A stretch of 64,000 nucleotides of DNA from Amycolatopsis methanolica 239. GTDB taxonomy: Bacteria; Actinomycetota; Actinomycetes; Mycobacteriales; Pseudonocardiaceae. This document shows positions 11,613-30,621 of this stretch, one piece after another (the stretch's first letter is position 1; every line of letters begins with the position of its first letter). The DNA lies in the NCBI RefSeq assembly GCF_000739085.1, contig NZ_CP009110.1, positions 4,092,001-4,156,000 on the forward strand. Direction: 5' to 3'. The position numbers and the translations under genes are program-made. The notes beneath the pieces were generated by a model, which saw only the letters and a program-made list of their open reading frames with translations, was not told the DNA's origin and did no database searches.

Positions 11613-11631
11613 GTCGTTCTCAACCTCCCGA

Positions 11632-11684
11632 TTGACAACGCTACCCCGAACCCCCTACCGTCGTCCTCAACCAAGTAGTTGAGG
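11632..11684 (+). promoter_or_regulatory. Promoter and probable ArsR operator
   Basis: TTGACA (11632-11637), an 18-nt spacer and TACCGT (11656-11661) form a good promoter. CCTCAAC-N6-GTTGAGG (11665-11684) is a perfect dyad placed at the expected transcription start, just before the ArsR start codon, so self-repression is likely. Confidence 0.65.
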
Positions 11685-11691
11685 AACCACG

Positions 11692-12048
11692 GTGGACGAG
11701 ACGACCGAGCAGCTCAACCGCGTGTTCGCGGCCCTCGCGGATCCGACCCGGCGCGACCTGGTCGCCCGCCTGGCCGCCGCGGACGCGACCGTCGGCGAGC
11801 TGGCTGAGCCGTACGACATGAGCCTCCAGGCGATCTCCAAGCACGTGAAGGTGCTGGAGGAAGCCGGCCTGGTGACGCGCAGCAAGGTCGCCCAACGGCG
11901 GCCTGTCCACCTCGACGCGGAGGTGTTCGACCTGATGACGAAGTGGATCGAACGCTACCGCCGCACGGCCGAGGAACGGTACCGGCGCCTGGACGCCGTG
12001 CTGTCCCGCATGTCCGGCACCGACCAGCCCCAGGAGGACGCATCATGA
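11692..12048 (+). CDS. ArsR-family winged-helix repressor
   Basis: 118 residues from GTG 11692 with GAGGA upstream. FAALADPTRRDLVARLA and SLQAISKHVKVLEEAGLVTR are the characteristic first helices and recognition helix of the ArsR/SmtB fold. No cysteine cluster for metal sensing is visible, so this belongs to the non-metal group that usually controls an adjacent AHSA1/SRPBCC gene. It overlaps the next gene by ATGA, forming a three-gene operon with the SRPBCC and DinB-like genes. The dyad overlapping its leader is the likely binding site. Confidence 0.92.
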   Translation: MDETTEQLNRVFAALADPTRRDLVARLAAADATVGELAEPYDMSLQAISKHVKVLEEAGLVTRSKVAQRRPVHLDAEVFDLMTKWIERYRRTAEERYRRLDAVLSRMSGTDQPQEDAS

Positions 12049-12533
12049 CCAGCACCCGTCAGGAAGCCCGGATCGTGGCGGCCGACAAGGTCCCGACGAT
12101 CGAGATCATCCGCGAGTTCGACGCGCCACCCGCGCACGTGTTCCGCGCCCACGTCGACCCCGACCTCCTCGCGCAGTGGGTCGGGCCACACTCGCTCACC
12201 ACGCGAATCACCAAGTGGGACGCCCGCACCGGCGGCGAGTGGGCCTTCGCCAACGACCGGGACGGCGAGGAAATCGCATCGTTCTTCGGCAGCTTCCACG
12301 AGGTGCGGCCGGACGAGCGGATCGTGTGGACGTTCGCCTACGAGGGCGATCCCGACGGCGTCGCGCTGGAGACGATCACCTTCGAGGCGATCGACGGCGG
12401 CCGGACGCGGCTGACCACCCTCAGCGTGGTCAAGGACTTCGAGACCCGCGACGGCATCCTGTCCAGCGGCATGGACGTCGGGGTCAACGAGGGCTACGAG
12501 AAGCTCGACGCACTGCTCGCCAAGGGAGCCTGA
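12045..12533 (+). CDS. SRPBCC (AHSA1-like) domain protein
   Basis: 162 residues starting at an ATG that overlaps the arsR stop. IIREFDAPPAHVFRAHVDPDLLAQWVGP is the typical first strand and helix of the START/Bet v1-like fold, and the C-terminal helix ends NEGYEKLDALLAKGA. The fold makes a hydrophobic cavity for small lipophilic ligands. Members of this ArsR-coupled group are widely conserved in actinobacteria, but their ligand is generally unknown; a role in xenobiotic binding or degradation is only a guess. It is co-transcribed with the flanking genes. Confidence 0.9.
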   Translation: MTSTRQEARIVAADKVPTIEIIREFDAPPAHVFRAHVDPDLLAQWVGPHSLTTRITKWDARTGGEWAFANDRDGEEIASFFGSFHEVRPDERIVWTFAYEGDPDGVALETITFEAIDGGRTRLTTLSVVKDFETRDGILSSGMDVGVNEGYEKLDALLAKGA

Positions 12534-12535
12534 AG

Positions 12536-13087
12536 ATGACACCTGCCCAGCAGCACGCGCACGACGCGGCCCGCTTCACCGAGCTGGTCGAGTCCGCGGG
12601 CCCCGGCGACTGGACCCGGCCCAGCCCGGTCCCCGGGTGGACCGCGCTCGACGTCGTGAAGCACCTCGTCGAGTGGTCCCGCGGCTTCCTGCGCGGCGCC
12701 GGGATCGAACTCGCCGCCCTGGACGTCGAGGCCGACCCGGCCGGCGCCTGGAAGCAGCACGCCGCCGACATCCAGGCGATCCTCGACGACCCCGCCGGGC
12801 GCGTGCTGAGCAACCCGCACACCGGCGACAAACCCGTGGACGAGGCGATCGACCAGTTCTACACAACCGACGTCTGGATGCACACCTGGGACCTGGCCAA
12901 GGCGCTCGGCCGCGAACCCGACCTGGGCCAGGACCGGTGCGCTGCCACGCTCGCCGGTATGCGGCCGATCGAGCAGCTCCTGCGGAACAGCGGGCAGTAC
13001 GGTCCCGCGGTGCCCGTCGCAGACGACGCCCCGCCGCAGGACCAGCTGATGGCCTTCATCGGCCGCGACCCGGCCTGGCGCCCCTGA
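12536..13087 (+). CDS. TIGR03086-type DinB/mycothiol-dependent-fold protein
   Basis: 183 residues; ATG 12536 sits 2 nt after the previous stop. It has the four-helix DinB/maleylpyruvate-isomerase fold: WTRPSPVPGWTALDVVKHLVEWSRGF holds the first probable metal-binding His, and TTDVWMHTWDLAKALGR holds the second. Proteins of this fold in actinobacteria use mycothiol or bind divalent metal for thiol-transfer reactions. The C-terminus ends in the usual LMAFIGRDPAW. It is the third gene of the arsR operon, ending just before a terminator that also lies at the lysG stop. Confidence 0.88.
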   Translation: MTPAQQHAHDAARFTELVESAGPGDWTRPSPVPGWTALDVVKHLVEWSRGFLRGAGIELAALDVEADPAGAWKQHAADIQAILDDPAGRVLSNPHTGDKPVDEAIDQFYTTDVWMHTWDLAKALGREPDLGQDRCAATLAGMRPIEQLLRNSGQYGPAVPVADDAPPQDQLMAFIGRDPAWRP

Positions 13088-20699: not shown

Positions 20700-21725
20700 T
20701 CAGGCGTCGATCTTCCCGAGTTGCGTCAGCATTTCCAGCTGGTCGAAGTACAGGTGGCTGTCGGTCATCTTCCCCGCCCGCACCCGGTGCACCTCGCAGA
20801 ACGGGATGTCCACCGTCCGCTGCGTCGCGGCGATCTCGCCGGCCGGGGTGACCAGCGGGCCGGTGTGGGTGCCCTGGAAGCGGCCTTCGAGCACGCCCCC
20901 GTTGTCGTCGCCGTAGATGGCCACCACGGTGATCCGGTTGTCCGGGAACGCGTCGTGCCACGTCGACCACTCCGCGTCCAGCGCCTCCCGCCCGGCGAGC
21001 CGGAAACCGCCGGGGCCGCGGGTTTCGAAGGCCGACTGGTCGGTCATCGCCTGCCAGCCCTCGCGGTCGCCGGCGTTCCACAGGTCGGTCCAGCGCTGGG
21101 TGAGGGTGTTGGTGCCGCCCTCGCGGACGGTGGTGAACAGCAGCCGGTACTCGCCCACCGACCGCACCTGCGCGTGGACCCGCGCGAGCGTGTCGGCACG
21201 CAACCGGGCCACCCCGGCGCGGCTGGCGGCCAGGTGCTCGGCCGTCTCGTACGCCGCGATCACCTGGCAGCGGCCCTCTTCGCGGTCGACCAGCATCTGC
21301 GCGCTGCACAGCCCCTCCATCTTCAGCAGGCCCGGCAGCGCGGTCTCGCGGAACGCCTGGACCGCGGCACCGACCTCGCCGGGCGGGCAGTCGATGGTGG
21401 TCACCCGGATCCCCGCGCCGGGACCCGGCCTGCTGCGGCGCGCGAACACCGCGACCTCGAAGTGGTCCACGGTGATCATGCCGTCGGCCAGTTCGGCGGC
21501 CTCCTTGCGGGAGGCCTCCACGGCGTGCTCGGACAGCGTCATCGATTCCGCGGAGTCCCAGTAGGACCCGACGACGGTGATGCCGAGCGTGCTGTCGGTC
21601 AGGACGGCCAGCCCGCGGTTGCCGGCCTGCGCCTCCACGAAGGGGCGCACGGTGGTTTCCAGGTAGTGCGTGACCTCGTCGATCCGGGCGGGGTCGCCGA
21701 TGAGCGTGTTCATCCTTGCGTACAC
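20700..21725 (-). CDS. Multidomain protein: N-terminal ABM-like repeats plus SnoaL-like ester cyclase
   Basis: 341 residues if started at GTG 21725, which has GGGAGG 5 nt upstream; ATG 21713 is the alternative. About residues 5-110 and 115-205 look like two ferredoxin-like antibiotic-biosynthesis-monooxygenase (ABM) type modules (MITVDHFEVAVF, LKMEGLCSAQMLVDREEGRC). Residues ~215-341 are a SnoaL-type NTF2-like domain (LTQRWTDLWNAGDREGWQAM, WHDAFPDNRI, VDIPFCEVHRVRAGKM). The fusion is unusual and the reaction unknown. A DosR-box-like sequence lies 71-85 nt upstream, tying it to the Acg/two-component island. Confidence 0.75.
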   Translation of the reverse strand: MYARMNTLIGDPARIDEVTHYLETTVRPFVEAQAGNRGLAVLTDSTLGITVVGSYWDSAESMTLSEHAVEASRKEAAELADGMITVDHFEVAVFARRSRPGPGAGIRVTTIDCPPGEVGAAVQAFRETALPGLLKMEGLCSAQMLVDREEGRCQVIAAYETAEHLAASRAGVARLRADTLARVHAQVRSVGEYRLLFTTVREGGTNTLTQRWTDLWNAGDREGWQAMTDQSAFETRGPGGFRLAGREALDAEWSTWHDAFPDNRITVVAIYGDDNGGVLEGRFQGTHTGPLVTPAGEIAATQRTVDIPFCEVHRVRAGKMTDSHLYFDQLEMLTQLGKIDA

Positions 21726-21795
21726 GGAACCCTCCCTGGGAAGTGCTGGTGGTGCCCGGAACCCTCCAGGGTCGTCCTCGGCCGTGGCGGCGGCT

Positions 21796-21810
21796 AGGGC
21801 CGAAAGACCG
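21796..21810 (-). promoter_or_regulatory. DosR-box-like operator
   Basis: On the minus strand this reads CGGTCTTTCGGCCCT, 13 of 15 positions identical to the mycobacterial DosR consensus GGGACTTTCGGCCCT. It is 71-85 nt upstream of the ester-cyclase start. Confidence 0.55.
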
Positions 21811-21814
21811 GGGC

Positions 21815-22441
21815 TCAGATGCCGCGGCCGGCTTCCTCGAGCTTGTCGACGGCGGTGGAGTCGCCCTCGAACCCGACGCGCACGGCGTCCCGGCCGAAGA
21901 CGAACAGCAGGAGTTCCACCGGGTCGCCGGTGACGGTGACCTGTTCGGCGCCGCCGCGCACGGTGGCTTCGCGGCCGTCGGTGGTGCGCAGGGTGACGCC
22001 GACGGGCACGCGCCGCAGGTTGAGCTTCGCCGCGCCGCGGGCGGCCCGCCACGCGGCCGCCCCGCGGGCGGGGTCGGCAGGGCGCGGTTCCCAGCCCGGC
22101 CGTCCGCGGCGCACGTCCTCGTGGTGGACGAGGAACTCGGCGGTGTTGGTGAGCTCGTCGAGCCTGCCGATGGAGGTGGGCCAGTACCAGGCGGGGCCGC
22201 GCCGCACCCGCTCGACCAGCCGGGACCACGGCTGCGCGGCGATGCCGTCCTGCACGCGCCGGGTGTGCCAGGCCAGCGGCGGCAGGAGGATGCCCAGCGC
22301 GGCGTCGGGACGGCTCTCCCGCACGACGAGGTGCGCGGCGAGGTCGCGGGTCAGCCACCCCTCGCACAGGGTGGGCGCGTCCGGCCCGGTCTCGTCCAGC
22401 AGGCGGCTCAACTGACGACGTTCCTCGGCGGCGACACCCAT
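21815..22441 (-). CDS. TIGR03085 family protein (maleylpyruvate isomerase / DinB fold)
   Basis: 208 residues. ERRQLSRLLDETGPDAPTLCEGWLTRDLAAHLVVRESRPD is the N-terminal helix pair with the conserved W-x-x-x-D-L-x-A-H motif, and FLVHHEDVRRGRPGWEPR carries the second His cluster. This is the mycothiol-dependent-enzyme fold restricted largely to actinobacteria. The role of TIGR03085 proteins is unknown. It stands between the ester-cyclase gene and the two Acg genes, all on the minus strand. Confidence 0.88.
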   Translation of the reverse strand: MGVAAEERRQLSRLLDETGPDAPTLCEGWLTRDLAAHLVVRESRPDAALGILLPPLAWHTRRVQDGIAAQPWSRLVERVRRGPAWYWPTSIGRLDELTNTAEFLVHHEDVRRGRPGWEPRPADPARGAAAWRAARGAAKLNLRRVPVGVTLRTTDGREATVRGGAEQVTVTGDPVELLLFVFGRDAVRVGFEGDSTAVDKLEEAGRGI

Positions 22442-22467
22442 GACGCCACCCTACCCGCCGGTAGGCC

Positions 22468-23382
22468 TCACCTGCGTGCGGAACGAGCACCCGGCGGCGC
22501 CGCGGTGACCGGGTAGCCAAACCGCAGCAGCGCCTGCGGCCAGCCGGGCAGGGCGAGACGCTCGATCAGCCCGGCGCGCACCTCGTGCAGGTGCAGCGGC
22601 TGGGTCAGCACGGAACCGGCGAGGCCGTGGGTGATCGCGGTCAGCCAGGTCTCCTGCAGCACGGTGCCGGCGAGCACGTGGTCGCGGCGGGTGTCGCCGT
22701 CGGTGAGGACGACGATCATCGACTCGGCGGCGATGCGTTCGGCCAGCGTGACCGCATCGGGCAGGCGGGTGTCGGCGCGGACCAGGCCGGACCAGGGCAG
22801 CGTGGTCGCCGCGGCGGGCGCCTGGCGGAACTGCGCGGTCCACGCCGTCAGCTCGCGCTGGTAGGCCCGGTCGTCCCGCAGCACGAGTCCCGCGCGGCCG
22901 AGCAGTTCGGCCAGCGCGGCGGACTCGGTGCGTGGTTCGACCAGCCGCGCCTCGGCGCCCGGCGCGACCGCCGCGTCCGCCAGTTCCCGCAGCACCGGCG
23001 CCGGGACCGGGTGCAGGGCGAACGGGGCGCGGTAGCTGCTGCGCCGGTAGATCGCCGGGTACCGGCCGAGTTCGGACGGGCTGGGCTCGCCGGGGGCGGG
23101 TACGCGGACCTCGGCGACGACGTCGGGGCGGGGCAGGAGCGTGACCTGCGGGCGCCTGCCGAGCACCGAGAGCGCGAGCCGCAGGTTCACCAGCGCGGCC
23201 CCGCAGGACATCAGCCGGTCGCGGCCTTCCGGGTCGTGCCGGGGCAGCGCGACCTCGGTCCGTTCGCGCAGTTCGATCACGCCGTCGCCGGGCACGAGCG
23301 CCCACGGCTGCGAGTTGTGCACCGACGGCGCCTGTGCGACGGCCCTGGCCAGCACGCCCAGCTCGGCCGCCGTCCAGGTCAC
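22468..23382 (-). CDS. Acg-type FMN-binding nitroreductase-fold protein 1
   Basis: 304 residues, starting at a GTG that overlaps the stop of the second Acg gene (GTGA), so translation is probably coupled. APSVHNSQPWAL is the conserved FMN-binding N-terminal motif, CGAALVNLRLAL and RRSSYRAPF are also family-typical. Acg proteins resemble two fused nitroreductase domains with a degenerate second half; in mycobacteria they belong to the DosR dormancy regulon and are thought to sequester FMN or act in redox balance. Confidence 0.88.
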   Translation of the reverse strand: MTWTAAELGVLARAVAQAPSVHNSQPWALVPGDGVIELRERTEVALPRHDPEGRDRLMSCGAALVNLRLALSVLGRRPQVTLLPRPDVVAEVRVPAPGEPSPSELGRYPAIYRRSSYRAPFALHPVPAPVLRELADAAVAPGAEARLVEPRTESAALAELLGRAGLVLRDDRAYQRELTAWTAQFRQAPAAATTLPWSGLVRADTRLPDAVTLAERIAAESMIVVLTDGDTRRDHVLAGTVLQETWLTAITHGLAGSVLTQPLHLHEVRAGLIERLALPGWPQALLRFGYPVTAAPPGARSARR

Positions 23383-24326
23383 GACGGGGCTTCCGCGAGG
23401 TGGTGCGTCACCTGGTCCACCGAGCGGCGGCGGGTGGCCGGCGCGCGGAAGCCATAGCCGAAGCGCAGCACGGCCTGCGGGTGGGTGGGCCGCCCGAGCA
23501 GGCGGCGCAGGCCGGCCCGCGTCGCCGGGACCTCGACCGCCTGGGACAGGAACGACACGCTCACCCCGGCGGTGGTGGCGGTGAGCAGCACGCGTTGCAG
23601 GGCCTGGCCGGTGCGCACCTGCGCCAACGGCACGTCGGTGTGGGAGGACAGCACGGCGAGCAGCGGGGTGCGCTCGTAGGGCCGCTCGCCCCCGCCTCCG
23701 CCGAAGCGGCGCAGCGCGAGCTGGGTGCCGGGTTCGGCGCGCGGACCGCCGGCCACCAGCGGCACGCCGTCGTCGCGGGTGCCCTCGGTGACGGTCCAGC
23801 GGGCCAGTTCGTCCTGGAACCGCGGGTCGGCGCGCTGGGCCCGCTCGGCGCGGCGCAGCAGCATGGCGAGCTCACCGGTCAGGCCCGGCTCCCGCACCAG
23901 GGTGAGTTCGGCGCCTTCGGCGATCGCGGCCCGCACCAGCGCCTCCCGTACGTGCGGGGGCACGGTGCGTTCGGTGAAGGGGCGCCGGTTGCTGCGGCGG
24001 TGGGCGATCGCCCTGACCAGCGCCTGGTCGTCGGGGCCGGGTGCCCGAGGCCCGCCGGCACGCACCGTGGCCAGCCGCACGGGATCGGTGTGGAGCTCCA
24101 CGACGGGCGTGCGCCCCGCGGCCCGGATCGCGACGCGCAGGTTGAGGATCGCGGCCCCACAGGACAGCCGCGCCTCGCGGCCGTCGGGGTCGGCTGCCTG
24201 GAGAACGCGGTCGCCGTCGAGGAGGACGTCGATCCGGTCGCCGGCGACCTCGAACCGCCAGGGCTGGGAGTTGTGCGGCGACGGCGCGCGCACCGCCGCT
24301 TCGAGGGCGGAGCGGATCACGGACAT
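23379..24326 (-). CDS. Acg-type FMN-binding nitroreductase-fold protein 2
   Basis: 315 residues from ATG 24326 with GGGAG 7 nt upstream. APSPHNSQPWRFEV, LSCGAAILNLRVAIRAAG and HRRSNRRPFTERTVP match the same family as the downstream gene, and VLRFGYGF closes the fold. It is the first gene of the Acg pair. A perfect DosR-type palindrome lies 91-104 nt upstream of the start. The pair probably arose by tandem duplication, though they have diverged considerably. Confidence 0.9.
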   Translation of the reverse strand: MSVIRSALEAAVRAPSPHNSQPWRFEVAGDRIDVLLDGDRVLQAADPDGREARLSCGAAILNLRVAIRAAGRTPVVELHTDPVRLATVRAGGPRAPGPDDQALVRAIAHRRSNRRPFTERTVPPHVREALVRAAIAEGAELTLVREPGLTGELAMLLRRAERAQRADPRFQDELARWTVTEGTRDDGVPLVAGGPRAEPGTQLALRRFGGGGGERPYERTPLLAVLSSHTDVPLAQVRTGQALQRVLLTATTAGVSVSFLSQAVEVPATRAGLRRLLGRPTHPQAVLRFGYGFRAPATRRRSVDQVTHHLAEAPS

Positions 24327-24416
24327 GTGGTTCTCCCGGGACGGGCTGGAGTGCTTGCCCGCTCCACTGTTCCCGGGCGCAGCCGCGCGGGGCAGAGCAC
24401 AAGGGGCCTGACGGCG

Positions 24417-24430
24417 GGGACTTCGGTCCC
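24417..24430. promoter_or_regulatory. DosR-box palindrome upstream of the Acg pair
   Basis: GGGACTTCGGTCCC, a dyad with GGGAC/GTCCC arms, flanked by G on the left and TT on the right, fits the DosR/DevR motif GGGACTTxxGxCCC very closely. It is placed where an activator box for the minus-strand gene would be. The rest of the 24327-24589 gap shows no gene. Confidence 0.7.
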
Positions 24431-24589
24431 TTCGGTGTGCACCCGCTGCGTCGGCCGGTTTCACGCCGGGACGTGCCCGAACGACGGGTCTGATTCCCGC
24501 CGGAAGCCGGACAATCCGGCTACCACCCCCGCGCCCCCCGGCCCCGCCCGCGCGATCCCGGCCGGTGCGCGCGGCGGCTCGCGCGGTCC

Positions 24590-25186
24590 CTACGCGCTGA
24601 CCGCCTGCTCGTCCGCGCCCACGATGTGGTCCACGAACCCGTAGGCCAGCGCCTCCTCGGCGTCGAACCAGCGGTCGCGGTCGGCGTCGGCCACGATGCG
24701 CTCCACCGGCTGGCCCGTCTGGCGCGCCGTGATCTCCGCGAGACGGCGCTTCATGCGGCCGAATACCTCCGCCTGGATCGCGATGTCGGTGGCCGCGCCG
24801 CCGATGCCCGCCGACGGCTGGTGCATCACCACCCGGGTGTTCGGCAGCAGATAGCGCTTTCCGGGCGTGCCCGAGGACAGCAGGAACTGGCCCATGGACG
24901 CCACGAAACCCAGGCCCCACGTGGAGACGTCGGGCTGAATCAAGCGCATCGTGTCGTAGATCGCCATGCCCGCGGTCACCGATCCGCCCGGCGAGTTGAT
25001 GTAGAAGGTGATGTCCTTGCGCGGATCCTCGGCCGCCAGCAGCAACAGCTGCGCGGTGATCCGGTTGGCGACCGCGTCGGTCACCTCCGAGCCGAGGAAC
25101 ACGATGCGGTCGCGCAACAGCTGCTCGAACACCGAATCGTCCAAAGAGGCGGACGCGTTGGCCGACGGAAGAATTCGCAGGGTCAT
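24590..25186 (-). CDS. clpP: ClpP-type protease subunit (paralogue)
   Basis: 198 residues with complete catalytic triad: Ser97 in [11 protein letters not shown], His122 in VVMHQPSAG and Asp171. INSPGGSV and the C-terminal [10 protein letters not shown] are standard. ClpP forms a tetradecameric chamber fed by ClpX or ClpC. Actinobacteria carry the essential clpP1-clpP2 operon next to clpX; no clpX or second clpP is present here, so this is a separately located paralogue. Its position among Acg genes and a two-component system suggests a stress-specific role, which is inference. Confidence 0.92.
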
Positions 25187-25289
25187 GCCCCGAACGTAGG
25201 CGGTGCAACCACTTCCGGACAGGCGTGTTCGCCCTGAGCGTGGCGGGTTCGCCCAGAGCGATCAATACAGAGCGATCAACCCAGCGCGA

Positions 25290-25955
25290 TCAACCCGCGT
25301 CGATCAGCCCCTCGCGAATCGCGAACAACGCCGCCTGCGTCCGCGACGGCAACTGCAGCTTGGTCAGCACATGGCTCACATGAGTGCGCGCCGTCCGTTC
25401 GCTGATGGACAGCTTCGTGGCGATCTGCCGGTTGGACAACCCCTGCGCGACCAGTGCCAGGATCGTCCGCTCGCGCGCGGTGAGCGCTGCCAGCCCCATC
25501 GGCGGCGACACCAGCTGCCGCGTCAGCCGGGCCGCCACGGCCGGGTCCAGATGCACCTCGCCGCGCGCCGCGGACCGGATCGCGGCCGCGACCTCGTCCG
25601 GGTCGGCGTCCTTGAGCAGGTACCCGGCCGCCCCGGCCTGCAGCGCCACGTGCACCCGCTCGGTCTCGCCGAAGCTGGTCAGCACCACCACCCGGACGCC
25701 CGGGTACTTCGCCGCGATCGCCTTGAGCGCGGTGATGCCGTCCACCTTGGGCATCAGCACGTCCATCAGCACCACCTGCGGCAGCTCGCCCTGCGCGGCC
25801 AGCCGCGCCAGCTCCGCCAGCGCCCGCTCGCCGTCGGCGGCCTCGGCGACCACCTCGATGCCCTCGGCGCTTTCCAGGTATGCCGCGATACCGCGCCGCA
25901 CCACGGCGTGGTCGTCGACCACCAGCACTCCGATCACGCCGGTCACCGCGGGCAT
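25290..25955 (-). CDS. NarL/DevR-type response regulator
   Basis: 221 residues. The receiver domain has the acidic pocket at VVDDH, the phospho-acceptor Asp65 in VVLMDVLMPKVDG and Lys in YLLKDAD. Residues ~150-215 form a LuxR-type HTH (LTARERTILALVAQGLSNRQIATKLSISERTARTHV region). ATG 25955 overlaps the kinase gene by 13 nt; GTG 25946, overlapping the kinase stop as GTGA, is an equally likely start. The gene is the obvious partner of that kinase and the candidate reader of the DosR-like boxes nearby. Confidence 0.92.
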   Translation of the reverse strand: MPAVTGVIGVLVVDDHAVVRRGIAAYLESAEGIEVVAEAADGERALAELARLAAQGELPQVVLMDVLMPKVDGITALKAIAAKYPGVRVVVLTSFGETERVHVALQAGAAGYLLKDADPDEVAAAIRSAARGEVHLDPAVAARLTRQLVSPPMGLAALTARERTILALVAQGLSNRQIATKLSISERTARTHVSHVLTKLQLPSRTQAALFAIREGLIDAG

Positions 25956-27118
25956 GGCATCCGCACCCTGACCCGGCACCCGGCCGCGGTGTTGCCGATC
26001 TCCATCGTTCCCCTCCAGCGCTGGGCTCGTTCCCGCATGGACACCACGCCGAGCCCGCCCGCGGGTGGCCCGGTCAGCCCGATCCCGTCGTCGCAGATCT
26101 CGACCACCAGTTCCCCGCCCGCCCTGGACACGCTGACCACCGCGGTGGTCGCCTGGGCGTGCTTGACGACGTTGTGCAGGCCCTCCTGCACGATGCGGAA
26201 CACGTCCTCGGCCTGCTCGGCGGGCAGTTCCGGCTGCTCGCCCGACCAGAACCGGATCTTCACGCCGGAGGAGGCCTGCACCGACTCGGCCAGCGTCCGC
26301 ACGGCCTCGCCGAGCCCGCGCCCGGCCAGTTCCAGCGGGTGCAGCTGCAGCACCAGGCCGCGCAGGTCGGCCAGGGCCTGCTGGGCCAGGTCGAGCAGTT
26401 CGTCGGCGATGTCGCGCACCTTGCCGTCGCCGGCGTGCGCGCGCAGCGCCTTGGCCTGCATCCGCATCGAAAACACCTGCTGCACCACCGAATCGTGCAG
26501 CTCGCGCGCCAACCGGGCCCGCTCCTCCAGCCGCGCCTCCTGCCGGGAGCGGGCCAGCAGATCGGCCGAGTCGACGGCCATCGCGGCCTGGTCGGCCATG
26601 GCCTCCAGGAACTCCAGCATCTCCCGCGCCGGGTCCTCGCCCGGCGAGTAGAACGCGTTGAGCACGCCGACCGCACGGCCGCGCACCACGAGCGGGACCG
26701 CGGCGAAGGTGTCCCAGTCGGGGGCACCCATGATCGCGTGCAGCGGGCCCCACGTGGGATCGGCCAGCACCGCGGCCTTGCGGTGCGGCACGACGATCCG
26801 CTTCTGGGCCTGGAACGCTTCGACGAACATCAGCCGGGCGCCCAGCTTGCGGCACTCCTCCAGGCGTTCGGTGAAGTCGTCGGCGCCGGTGAACCCGGCC
26901 TTGCCGACGACCCGCATGGTGCCGCCCTCGACGCGCAGGATCTGCACGGCCGCGATGTGCGTGGCCTGCACCACCTCCCGCGCCACGACGTCGAGCGTCA
27001 CGCTGAGCGAGGCCGCGTCGGCCACGCTGGACGCGGCGCGCGCGATCGCGGCGAGCCGCCGTTGCCCGTCCCCGGCCGTCCGCGCACCGCGGTGGCAGGC
27101 GCTCGTCAGTTCGCTCAA
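25943..27118 (-). CDS. GAF-domain HisKA_3 sensor histidine kinase (DevS/NarX-like)
   Basis: 391 residues, soluble, no membrane helix. One GAF domain spans ~30-185 (AVPLVVRGRAVGVLNAFYS). The dimerisation helix carries the phospho-His in ARLARELHDSVVQQ (His208), typical of HisKA_3, and the HATPase domain has HNVVKHAQAT, VEICDDGIG and GLGVVSMRERA. DevS/DosS kinases have two GAF domains with heme in the first; this one has a single GAF, so heme binding cannot be assumed. It forms an operon with the response regulator. Confidence 0.9.
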   Translation of the reverse strand: MSELTSACHRGARTAGDGQRRLAAIARAASSVADAASLSVTLDVVAREVVQATHIAAVQILRVEGGTMRVVGKAGFTGADDFTERLEECRKLGARLMFVEAFQAQKRIVVPHRKAAVLADPTWGPLHAIMGAPDWDTFAAVPLVVRGRAVGVLNAFYSPGEDPAREMLEFLEAMADQAAMAVDSADLLARSRQEARLEERARLARELHDSVVQQVFSMRMQAKALRAHAGDGKVRDIADELLDLAQQALADLRGLVLQLHPLELAGRGLGEAVRTLAESVQASSGVKIRFWSGEQPELPAEQAEDVFRIVQEGLHNVVKHAQATTAVVSVSRAGGELVVEICDDGIGLTGPPAGGLGVVSMRERAQRWRGTMEIGNTAAGCRVRVRMPCPR

Positions 27119-29331: not shown

Positions 29332-30621
29332 TCAGCCGGCGAGCCGGGTCAGGCGGGACTTCATCTCGGAGCGCTCCAGCGATCCGGGCGGGACGAGGGT
29401 GACCGCGGCCCGCACCGACAGGCGGGAGCGGATCAGGTGCTCCAGTTCGCCGCGCAGCTGGTCGCGGTCGCCGGGGTGCTCGCCCCATTCGGCCTCGACG
29501 CACAGCGGCGGTTGGACGCGCGGGCCCGGTCCGGGCAGCACGATCTGCACCGCGCCGGTGGTGCGCGGGTGCAGGGTCTGCACCAGGTCGCGCACGGCGG
29601 AGGGGAACACGTTGACGCCGAGCACGATCAGCATGTCGTCGGTGCGCCCGACACAGCGGATCAGCGGGGCGCCGTCGGCCGCGAGGCCGGTGACGACGAC
29701 CCGGTCGCGGGTGCGGAACCGGACCAGCGGGCAGCATTCGCGGTCGAGGGAGGTGTAGACCAGCTCGCCGGTGGCGCCGGGCTCGGGGACGACGGGCCGG
29801 CCGGTGTCCGGGTCGATCAGCTCGACGACGACGTGCCGCCCGCCGGTGAACCGCATCCCGCCGGTGCCCGGTTCCTCGCCGAACAGGACCGGCGCCATGT
29901 CGGCGTTGCCGAGCCCTTCGGTGACGGTCGCGCCCCATTCGGCTTCCACGTGCGCGCGGAACGCGGGTTCTCCCCCGCCGGGTTCGCCGCCGACGAACAC
30001 CTTCCGCACCCCGAACTCGCGGGGGTCGCGGCCGTGCGAGCGCAGGTACTCGGCGAGGTAGCGGGCGTAGGACGGGGTCGAGTGCAGCGCGGTGACGCCG
30101 AGGGTTTCCAGTGCCAGCAACGCTTTCTCCGACGCGCCGGTGCCGATCGGGATGACGGTGGAGCCGATGGATTCGAGCGCGTCGCGGATGGGCAGGCCGC
30201 CGACGAACAGGGTGAGCCCGGCGCCGTGCAGGACGACGTCGTCGGGGCGGGCGCCCATGGTGCGGAAGGCGCGGGCCACCATTTCGGTCCAGGACTGGGC
30301 GTCGCGGCGGGTGACGCCGACCCAGCTGGGTTTGCCGGTGGTGCCGGTGGAGGCGTGCACGCGGATCACCTCGGCCAGGCCGGTGCCGGCGTGGCGGCCC
30401 AGCGGCGGCGCGGCGGCCTGCGACTCGCGCAGCATGGCCTTGGTGGTGAAGGGCAGTTTCGGCAGGTCGACGAGCGAGTCGACGGCGGCGGGCTGGACGC
30501 CGTGCCCGGTCCAGAGGTCGGCGTAGAACGGCGACCGCGCGGGCAGTGCCCGCAGCTGTTCGCGCAGCGCTGCGGTGACGGCCTCGCGGTCCGCGGGCGC
30601 GACGAAATCGGGTGTGACCAC
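29332..30621 (-). CDS. PaaK-like adenylate-forming CoA ligase
   Basis: 429 residues from GTG 30621, with GAAAGG 7 nt upstream. RVHASTGTTGKPSWVGVT is the ATP/AMP-binding P-loop, LHSTPSYARYLAEYL, GGEPGGGEPAFR and CVGRTDDMLIVLGVNVFPSAV are those of the phenylacetate-CoA ligase group, and the C-terminal SEMKSRLTRL holds the expected Lys. No paaABCDE epoxidase genes are nearby, so the substrate need not be phenylacetate; an aromatic or heterocyclic acid is the best guess. Its operon partners are an ADH, an ALDH and a luciferase-like enzyme. Confidence 0.87.
   Translation of the reverse strand: MVTPDFVAPADREAVTAALREQLRALPARSPFYADLWTGHGVQPAAVDSLVDLPKLPFTTKAMLRESQAAAPPLGRHAGTGLAEVIRVHASTGTTGKPSWVGVTRRDAQSWTEMVARAFRTMGARPDDVVLHGAGLTLFVGGLPIRDALESIGSTVIPIGTGASEKALLALETLGVTALHSTPSYARYLAEYLRSHGRDPREFGVRKVFVGGEPGGGEPAFRAHVEAEWGATVTEGLGNADMAPVLFGEEPGTGGMRFTGGRHVVVELIDPDTGRPVVPEPGATGELVYTSLDRECCPLVRFRTRDRVVVTGLAADGAPLIRCVGRTDDMLIVLGVNVFPSAVRDLVQTLHPRTTGAVQIVLPGPGPRVQPPLCVEAEWGEHPGDRDQLRGELEHLIRSRLSVRAAVTLVPPGSLERSEMKSRLTRLAG

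Follow-up and report, generated by a model that had tools for sequence, protein, structure and literature searches.

The Acg1-Acg2 operon of Amycolatopsis methanolica 239 and a nearby SnoaL-domain gene are most likely two outlying targets of a DosR/OsdR-type hypoxia regulon that is controlled in trans. Both lie in a stretch of minus-strand genes at positions 20700-27118 of a 64,000-nucleotide window (C1:4092001-4156000 of the 7.24-Mb single-contig genome), and each is preceded by a DosR-type box. The regulator-kinase pair encoded in the same stretch is, by sequence, an unrelated two-component system and not DosR/DosS; a true DosR and a true DosS are encoded elsewhere in the genome. The original prediction, a DosR-like dormancy island with boxes, targets and sensory pair in one place, holds in part. 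A DosR-type regulon outside mycobacteria, the fit of the boxes, and the Acg pair and SnoaL gene as likely targets all stand, and the self-contained local island is not supported.

DosR-type boxes before the Acg and SnoaL genes

Sites were scored with a weight matrix made from 16 training sites in promoters of DosR-type islands (genomes G003, G004, G005, G009, G011, G012, G013 and G016); none came from the window's genome or from the two nearest to it. The Acg1 box GGGACTTCGGTCCC ranked first in the window with a score of 20.65 (22-mer at 24413) and the SnoaL box CGGTCTTTCGGCCC second with 17.78 (22-mer at 21793), followed by a third-ranked site at 10.88. In 20 simulated order-2 Markov windows there were 0.95 matches of at least 12 per window, with a maximum of 17.55, and six 14-kb stretches of other genomes contained two such matches, both in one stretch (14.5 and 13.3). 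The Acg1 site stands out by score alone, and it matches GGGACTTNNGNCCY with no mismatch. It is nearer than the OsdR boxes of Streptomyces coelicolor to the mycobacterial GGGACTT form. With its box centred at about -97, the Acg operon has the DosR-type site within ~150 bp upstream by which we recognize a DosR/OsdR target. The score of the SnoaL site was not reached anywhere in 1.28 Mb of simulated DNA; a few sites of this grade may arise by chance in a 7-Mb genome, and thus the case for the SnoaL box rests on its conservation. From the Acg box to position 30,600 no site scored 6 or more, hence none stands ahead of clpP, the regulator or the kinase.

The Acg 14-mer can also be read as RNA, in which it makes a perfect 5-bp stem with a UUCG loop (GGGAC-UUCG-GUCCC), and such a tetraloop stem is stable. 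However, no T tract follows the 14-mer on either strand, related boxes such as GGGACTTCCGGCCC and GGGCCTTTGTGCCC break the stem yet retain the protein-site consensus, and the distance from box to start is similar among relatives. We therefore regard a terminator or attenuator hairpin, or a palindrome that arose by chance, as an extremely improbable account of this element.

The core of the Acg box is identical in all three genomes with this arrangement (A. methanolica 239, G015 and G017). The DNA on its far side has diverged or been replaced; it is different in G015, and there is ~1 kb extra in G017. The SnoaL gene is present in 7 of the 19 genomes of the genus, and CGGTCTTTCGGCCC is identical in six of these, A. 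methanolica 239 included and three of them more distant (G006, G014, G016). The box of the seventh genome, where the protein has 56% identity, is degenerate (score 7.3). The gene upstream of the SnoaL box is of the TIGR03085 family in G000, G017 and G016; in G015, G006 and G014 it is a 355-aa gene or similar. SnoaL and the located Acg genes are on separate contigs or more than 150 kb apart in G006, G012 and G016, and no Acg match at 1e-60 was obtained in G014. Hence the two targets are independent of each other, and it is within one clade that they lie close together.

In the Acg tree, the sister group of Acg1 (94/92) contains the DosS-linked Acg of the same genome, and Acg2 branches together (100/100) with the second member of the DosS-linked Acg pairs in G003, G005 and G013. 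In these three genomes the Acg1-Acg2 pair neighbours genes for DosS and DosR, which share 69-88% identity with those of A. methanolica 239. A box is found at the start of the pair in G003 and G005, and the Acg promoter of G013 scores only 9.1. G011 and G016 have a single Acg next to DosS and DosR, and in G012 a single Acg adjoins a DosR. Given the tree position of Acg1 and its box, the operon of the window has the look of an outlying copy in which the box was retained.

The features of the stretch are listed in Table 1. Both Acg proteins, which the original prediction had named as Acg-type nitroreductases, exceed the curated NCBIfam cut-off of the Acg family NF047509. The ClpP paralogue, the NarL/LuxR-type response regulator, the GAF-HisKA_3 kinase and the ABM+SnoaL protein (then called an ester cyclase) are found where they had been placed. 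The two sites it had described as DosR-box-like are the matrix's first and second choice and are conserved in relatives. The nearest named relative among the matches listed is Amycolatopsis tucumanensis, whose Acg1 is 95% identical (L083). The Acg1 and Acg2 genes overlap by 4 bp and presumably belong to the same operon.

Table 1. Genes and boxes of the stretch, in window coordinates.
Feature	Position	Strand	Details
ABM-like region + C-terminal SnoaL protein	20700..21725	-	341 aa from called start; PF07366 SnoaL 2.8e-16; PF03992 ABM 9e-06
SnoaL-gene box CGGTCTTTCGGCCC	21797..21810	-	centre ~78 bp upstream of called SnoaL start (21725)
TIGR03085-family metal-binding protein (mycothiol-dependent maleylpyruvate-isomerase type)	21815..22441	-	TIGR03085 224.2 bits, cut-off 138.85
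Acg2, second Acg-family protein	22468..23382	-	NF047509 211.3 bits, cut-off 199
Acg1, Acg-family FMN-binding oxidoreductase, 315 aa	23379..24326	-	NF047509 308.7 bits, cut-off 199; Acg structure 2ymv E 2.1e-23
Acg1 box GGGACTTCGGTCCC	24417..24430	+	centre ~97 bp upstream of Acg1 ATG (24326; gene on minus strand)
ClpP paralogue	24590..25186	-	PF00574 4.9e-73
NarL/LuxR-family response regulator	25290..25955	-	VraR 2.8e-48 best structure match; DevR sixth, 8.4e-34
Histidine kinase: one GAF, HisKA_3, HATPase	25943..27118	-	GAF region = residues 36-183

Some details of the gene order differ among the relatives. G017 has no second Acg gene, and ~56 bp separate TIGR03085 and Acg1 (L199 9934-11534); its added ~1 kb sits between ClpP and the box (L199 ~11626-12843). 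In G015, the TIGR03085 gene is separated from the SnoaL box by two genes that are absent from the window (L200 12006-13700), with box and promoter intact. The 355-aa gene also precedes the SnoaL box in G006 and G014 (L246, L247), and the window lineage may have lost it. Gene starts outside the window's list of open reading frames come from a simple GC3 caller and may be off; the caller missed or misjoined some genes, namely a USP gene at 3181193 and the regulator in L206, L209 and L210; the latter was recovered by tblastn.

The regulator and kinase beside the proposed targets

One explanation for the boxes is that the adjacent pair reads them, as in the self-contained island with its own O2/NO-sensing pair that had been predicted. 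The pair adjoins the targets in all three genomes of the clade, and its regulator belongs to the same NarL/LuxR superfamily as DosR. However, its recognition helix is SERTARTHVSHV, compared with AEKTVKNYVSRL in DosR. Passages of PMC5999986 give K179, K182 and N183 as core DNA contacts of DosR; the window regulator has R, R and T at the equivalent positions, so that none of the three is identical and two are conservative K-to-R changes. In the regulator tree, 10 DosR-type rows form one branch (99/99) and 5 window-type rows another (100/100), with the window regulator outside the DosR clade. The label "DevR-type" is thus not borne out by helix or tree, and the comparison of base-contact residues suggested as a check goes against it.

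The kinase does not resemble DosS in its sensory part. Its 10 structure matches with E up to 0.01 cover kinase-core/ATPase domains only (DesK, VraS, both DosT and DevS at ~5e-6, and others), and no DosS GAF structure is among them. It has a single GAF rather than the tandem of DosS/DosT, and the heme-histidine motif is absent: the HHPPM stretch of the genome's own DosS aligns to a two-residue gap followed by PDW. According to passages of PMC4082495, the heme ligand of DosS is His149, to which, in our reading of the alignment, one histidine of the HHPPM stretch would correspond. At the N-terminus, the called kinase orthologues in five genomes (L205-L209) start with a Cys motif, CPxCGxPP, and the window kinase has a degraded ACHRGARTAG (27050-27118), which could reflect the loss of a metal site or an artefact of the called start.

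The linkage of the pair to Acg is also narrow. Kinase orthologues with 77-81% identity are found in six further genomes (G003, G004, G005, G011, G012 and G013); matches of 47-49% (G002, G006, G011) were left out of this count. The regulator (86-90%) adjoins the kinase in all six 14-kb stretches around these orthologues, in which no Acg or ClpP was detected (tblastn, E up to 1e-10). Linkage of pair and Acg is confined to 3 closely related genomes of the 9 searched that have a kinase of at least 77% identity. Nor do the data tie ClpP to the regulon or module; it lacks a box, and none was detected in the six kinase-orthologue stretches.

Together with the boxes that stand beside true DosRS in other genomes and the lack of a box before the pair itself, these results make it very unlikely that the local pair is the reader, and the predicted island with its own sensory pair is not supported. 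A combined arrangement, in which DosR acts via the boxes and the local pair via other sites in the same promoters, is somewhat less improbable but still unlikely. The adjacency of pair and targets would fit it, and the differing DNA beyond the Acg box in the three genomes leaves room for other inputs; however, no conserved element is evident beyond that box, even in the clade with the adjacency.

DosR, DosS and box placement across the genome

The true DosR is encoded at 3,515,069-3,515,689. It matches DevR (3c3w) at 2.4e-94, with KTVKNYVSRL / AEKTVKNYVSRL intact. The true DosS, at 3,518,384-3,520,108, contains two GAF stretches. Its GAF-A carries an HPPM motif and aligns with crystal structures of DevS GAF-A at 1e-60 to 1e-59, and the kinase is predicted to bind heme. 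It also matches the DosT structure 2vzw at 9.9e-66. Both genes are ~0.6 Mb from the window targets and beside another Acg. A second tandem-GAF kinase at 3.780-3.782 Mb brings the DosS-type kinases of the genome to at least two, and three further regulators have a KNYVS helix (3826629, 3487120, 5815909). In all, four regulators of the genome have a KT(V/I)KNYVS helix (L065, L058, L060, L064), and one more has KTVKNHVTS (L056).

A dormancy island at 3.155-3.19 Mb (L023, L024) contains CBS, USP, phosphoketolase, acetate kinase, PPK2, Acg and pyridoxamine-oxidase-type genes, with nine matrix matches of at least 12 in 35 kb. The CBS-USP-phosphoketolase-acetate kinase operon and further USPs lie within it.

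Box numbers were compared with those of reversed control patterns. A strict pattern, GGGWCTTNNGKCCC, which was chosen after sites had been seen, has 9 sites in the genome against 3 for its reversed control. Looser patterns were rarer than their reversed controls (17 against 37, and 126 against 194). Since the raw counts are unclear, we used placement and conservation as evidence instead. Placement was judged for eight of the nine strict boxes, with 3977319 left out. Six of the nine stand before dormancy-type genes, ~60-100 bp ahead of the CBS-USP(-phosphoketolase-AckA) operon, three USP genes, an Rv2632c-like gene and the window Acg. Four of the nine are within 150 bp of the ~20 Acg/USP genes, a target of 3 kb in 7.24 Mb, compared with ~0.004 expected by simple arithmetic for a pattern picked post hoc. 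The genome-wide check proposed with the original prediction therefore gives a divided answer: raw counts are not enriched, and placement before dormancy genes does support a regulon. The strict box at 5695550-5695563 (L028, 17.9) borders an MFS transporter fragment, and none of its neighbours is a dormancy gene. At 3778730 the site GGGACCATCGGCCC is seen, and the matrix gave no match of at least 12 in that region (L026).

Several observations weigh against assigning the two window genes to a DosR-type regulon. Because two DosR-like consensus patterns served to select the training sites, the matrix is in part a restatement of the consensus. The first base of the SnoaL box is atypical, C for G. 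Over 19 genomes the strict pattern has 94 sites against 87 for the reversed control, which is no enrichment. Two of the strict boxes in A. methanolica 239, 5695550 and 264194 (the latter inside a called gene), are not before dormancy genes, and a site at 3721285 (L029), with a score as high as 20.2, stands ~73 bp before a 726-aa gene; it is possibly a further target or a chance match. Among 28 related Acg loci, 8 of which belonged to the training set, 15 score at least 12, 5 score 9-12 and 8 score below 5; for the 20 loci outside the training set the numbers are 8, 4 and 8. Seven of the eight low-scoring loci are lower-scoring homology matches (L180-L186), for which no box was detected within 300 bp upstream. 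They include the Acg at 3171087 of the same genome, which lies inside the dormancy island and may be read from an upstream promoter. As for the reader of the boxes, a DosR K182R model retains its DNA contacts in passages of PMC5999986, and thus the two K-to-R changes alone do not exclude DNA binding by the window regulator. A Streptomyces DosS-like kinase also phosphorylates an orphan regulator, as described in passages of PMC9739842, so that cross-talk is possible.

We then propose a model for the control of the two targets. Phosphorylated DosR would be made from the gene at 3,515,069-3,515,689, near the tandem-GAF heme-type kinase at 3,518,384-3,520,108, and would bind the boxes at about -97 (Acg1) and -78 (SnoaL). 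The Acg operon and the SnoaL gene would then be activated at low O2 or in the presence of NO or CO. The local regulator-kinase pair and clpP, which adjoin the targets in one small clade, would have separate functions. Binding and activation are inferred from the sequences, as are the signal and the identity of the acting regulator among the four with a KNYVS helix. It is tempting to speculate further that the DosR regulon of Amycolatopsis is dispersed, is read by several DosR paralogues (four with a KNYVS helix here) and at least two DosS-type kinases, and has recruited the ABM/SnoaL protein as a conserved target, although we hold this wider picture only tentatively. The ABM/SnoaL protein may be a hypoxic-state enzyme that is not known from mycobacteria.

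Relation to known DosR-type systems

As a kind, a DosR-like system outside mycobacteria is already established by OsdR of Streptomyces coelicolor, for which PMC5069765 reports an experimentally shown regulon and binding of mycobacterial DevR targets in electrophoretic mobility shift assays. The same paper places predicted OsdR sites before USP genes, the nitroreductase SCO0215 (-99) and pyridoxamine oxidase genes. The system described here resembles OsdR/OsdK in its DosR-like boxes and in having a DosR-like regulator and a DosS-like kinase. It differs in that its two window targets lie ~0.6 Mb from the regulator, and in the SnoaL target: Table 1 of predicted sites in PMC5069765 has no SnoaL-named entry, though unnamed hypothetical proteins are listed.

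In Mycobacterium tuberculosis, the DosR targets include the Acg-family proteins Rv2032 and Rv3131 (passages of PMC11841060). The likeness to DosR/DevR-DosS/DosT lies in a regulator with an identical recognition helix and a DevS GAF-A-like kinase, both elsewhere in the genome and of predicted function, whereas the regulator and kinase of the window itself do not belong to that system. These two are closer to VraR/LiaR and other NarL-family systems: VraR is the best match of the regulator, and the kinase core is DesK/LiaS/NarX-like. They differ from those systems in the single-GAF input of the kinase, and they score far below the cut-offs of the NCBIfam equivalogs listed. The function of Acg is disputed; passages of PMC11841060 state that it binds FMN and reportedly takes no electrons from NAD(P)H.

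Literature searches of open papers brought up no description of a DosR regulon for Amycolatopsis, and the paper listed for DosR together with SnoaL has an unrelated title. Passages of PMC11303327, in which Amycolatopsis and DosR co-occur, draw no link between them, and the sole mention of Amycolatopsis in passages of PMC9739842, a paper that also names DevR, OsdR and hypoxia, concerns vancomycin genes. The finding is true but modest. What is new is the further genus, the outlying location of the targets and a SnoaL-type target, which has no named counterpart in the table of PMC5069765; the SnoaL-type protein as a conserved target is itself a modest new point.

Together, our results indicate DosR-type control in an actinomycete that is neither Mycobacterium nor Streptomyces. 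They also caution that the proximity of a box to a two-component pair does not mean that this pair reads it. With its several DosR paralogues and one candidate new target, this soil genus offers a setting in which to test how DosR-type regulators divide their labour.

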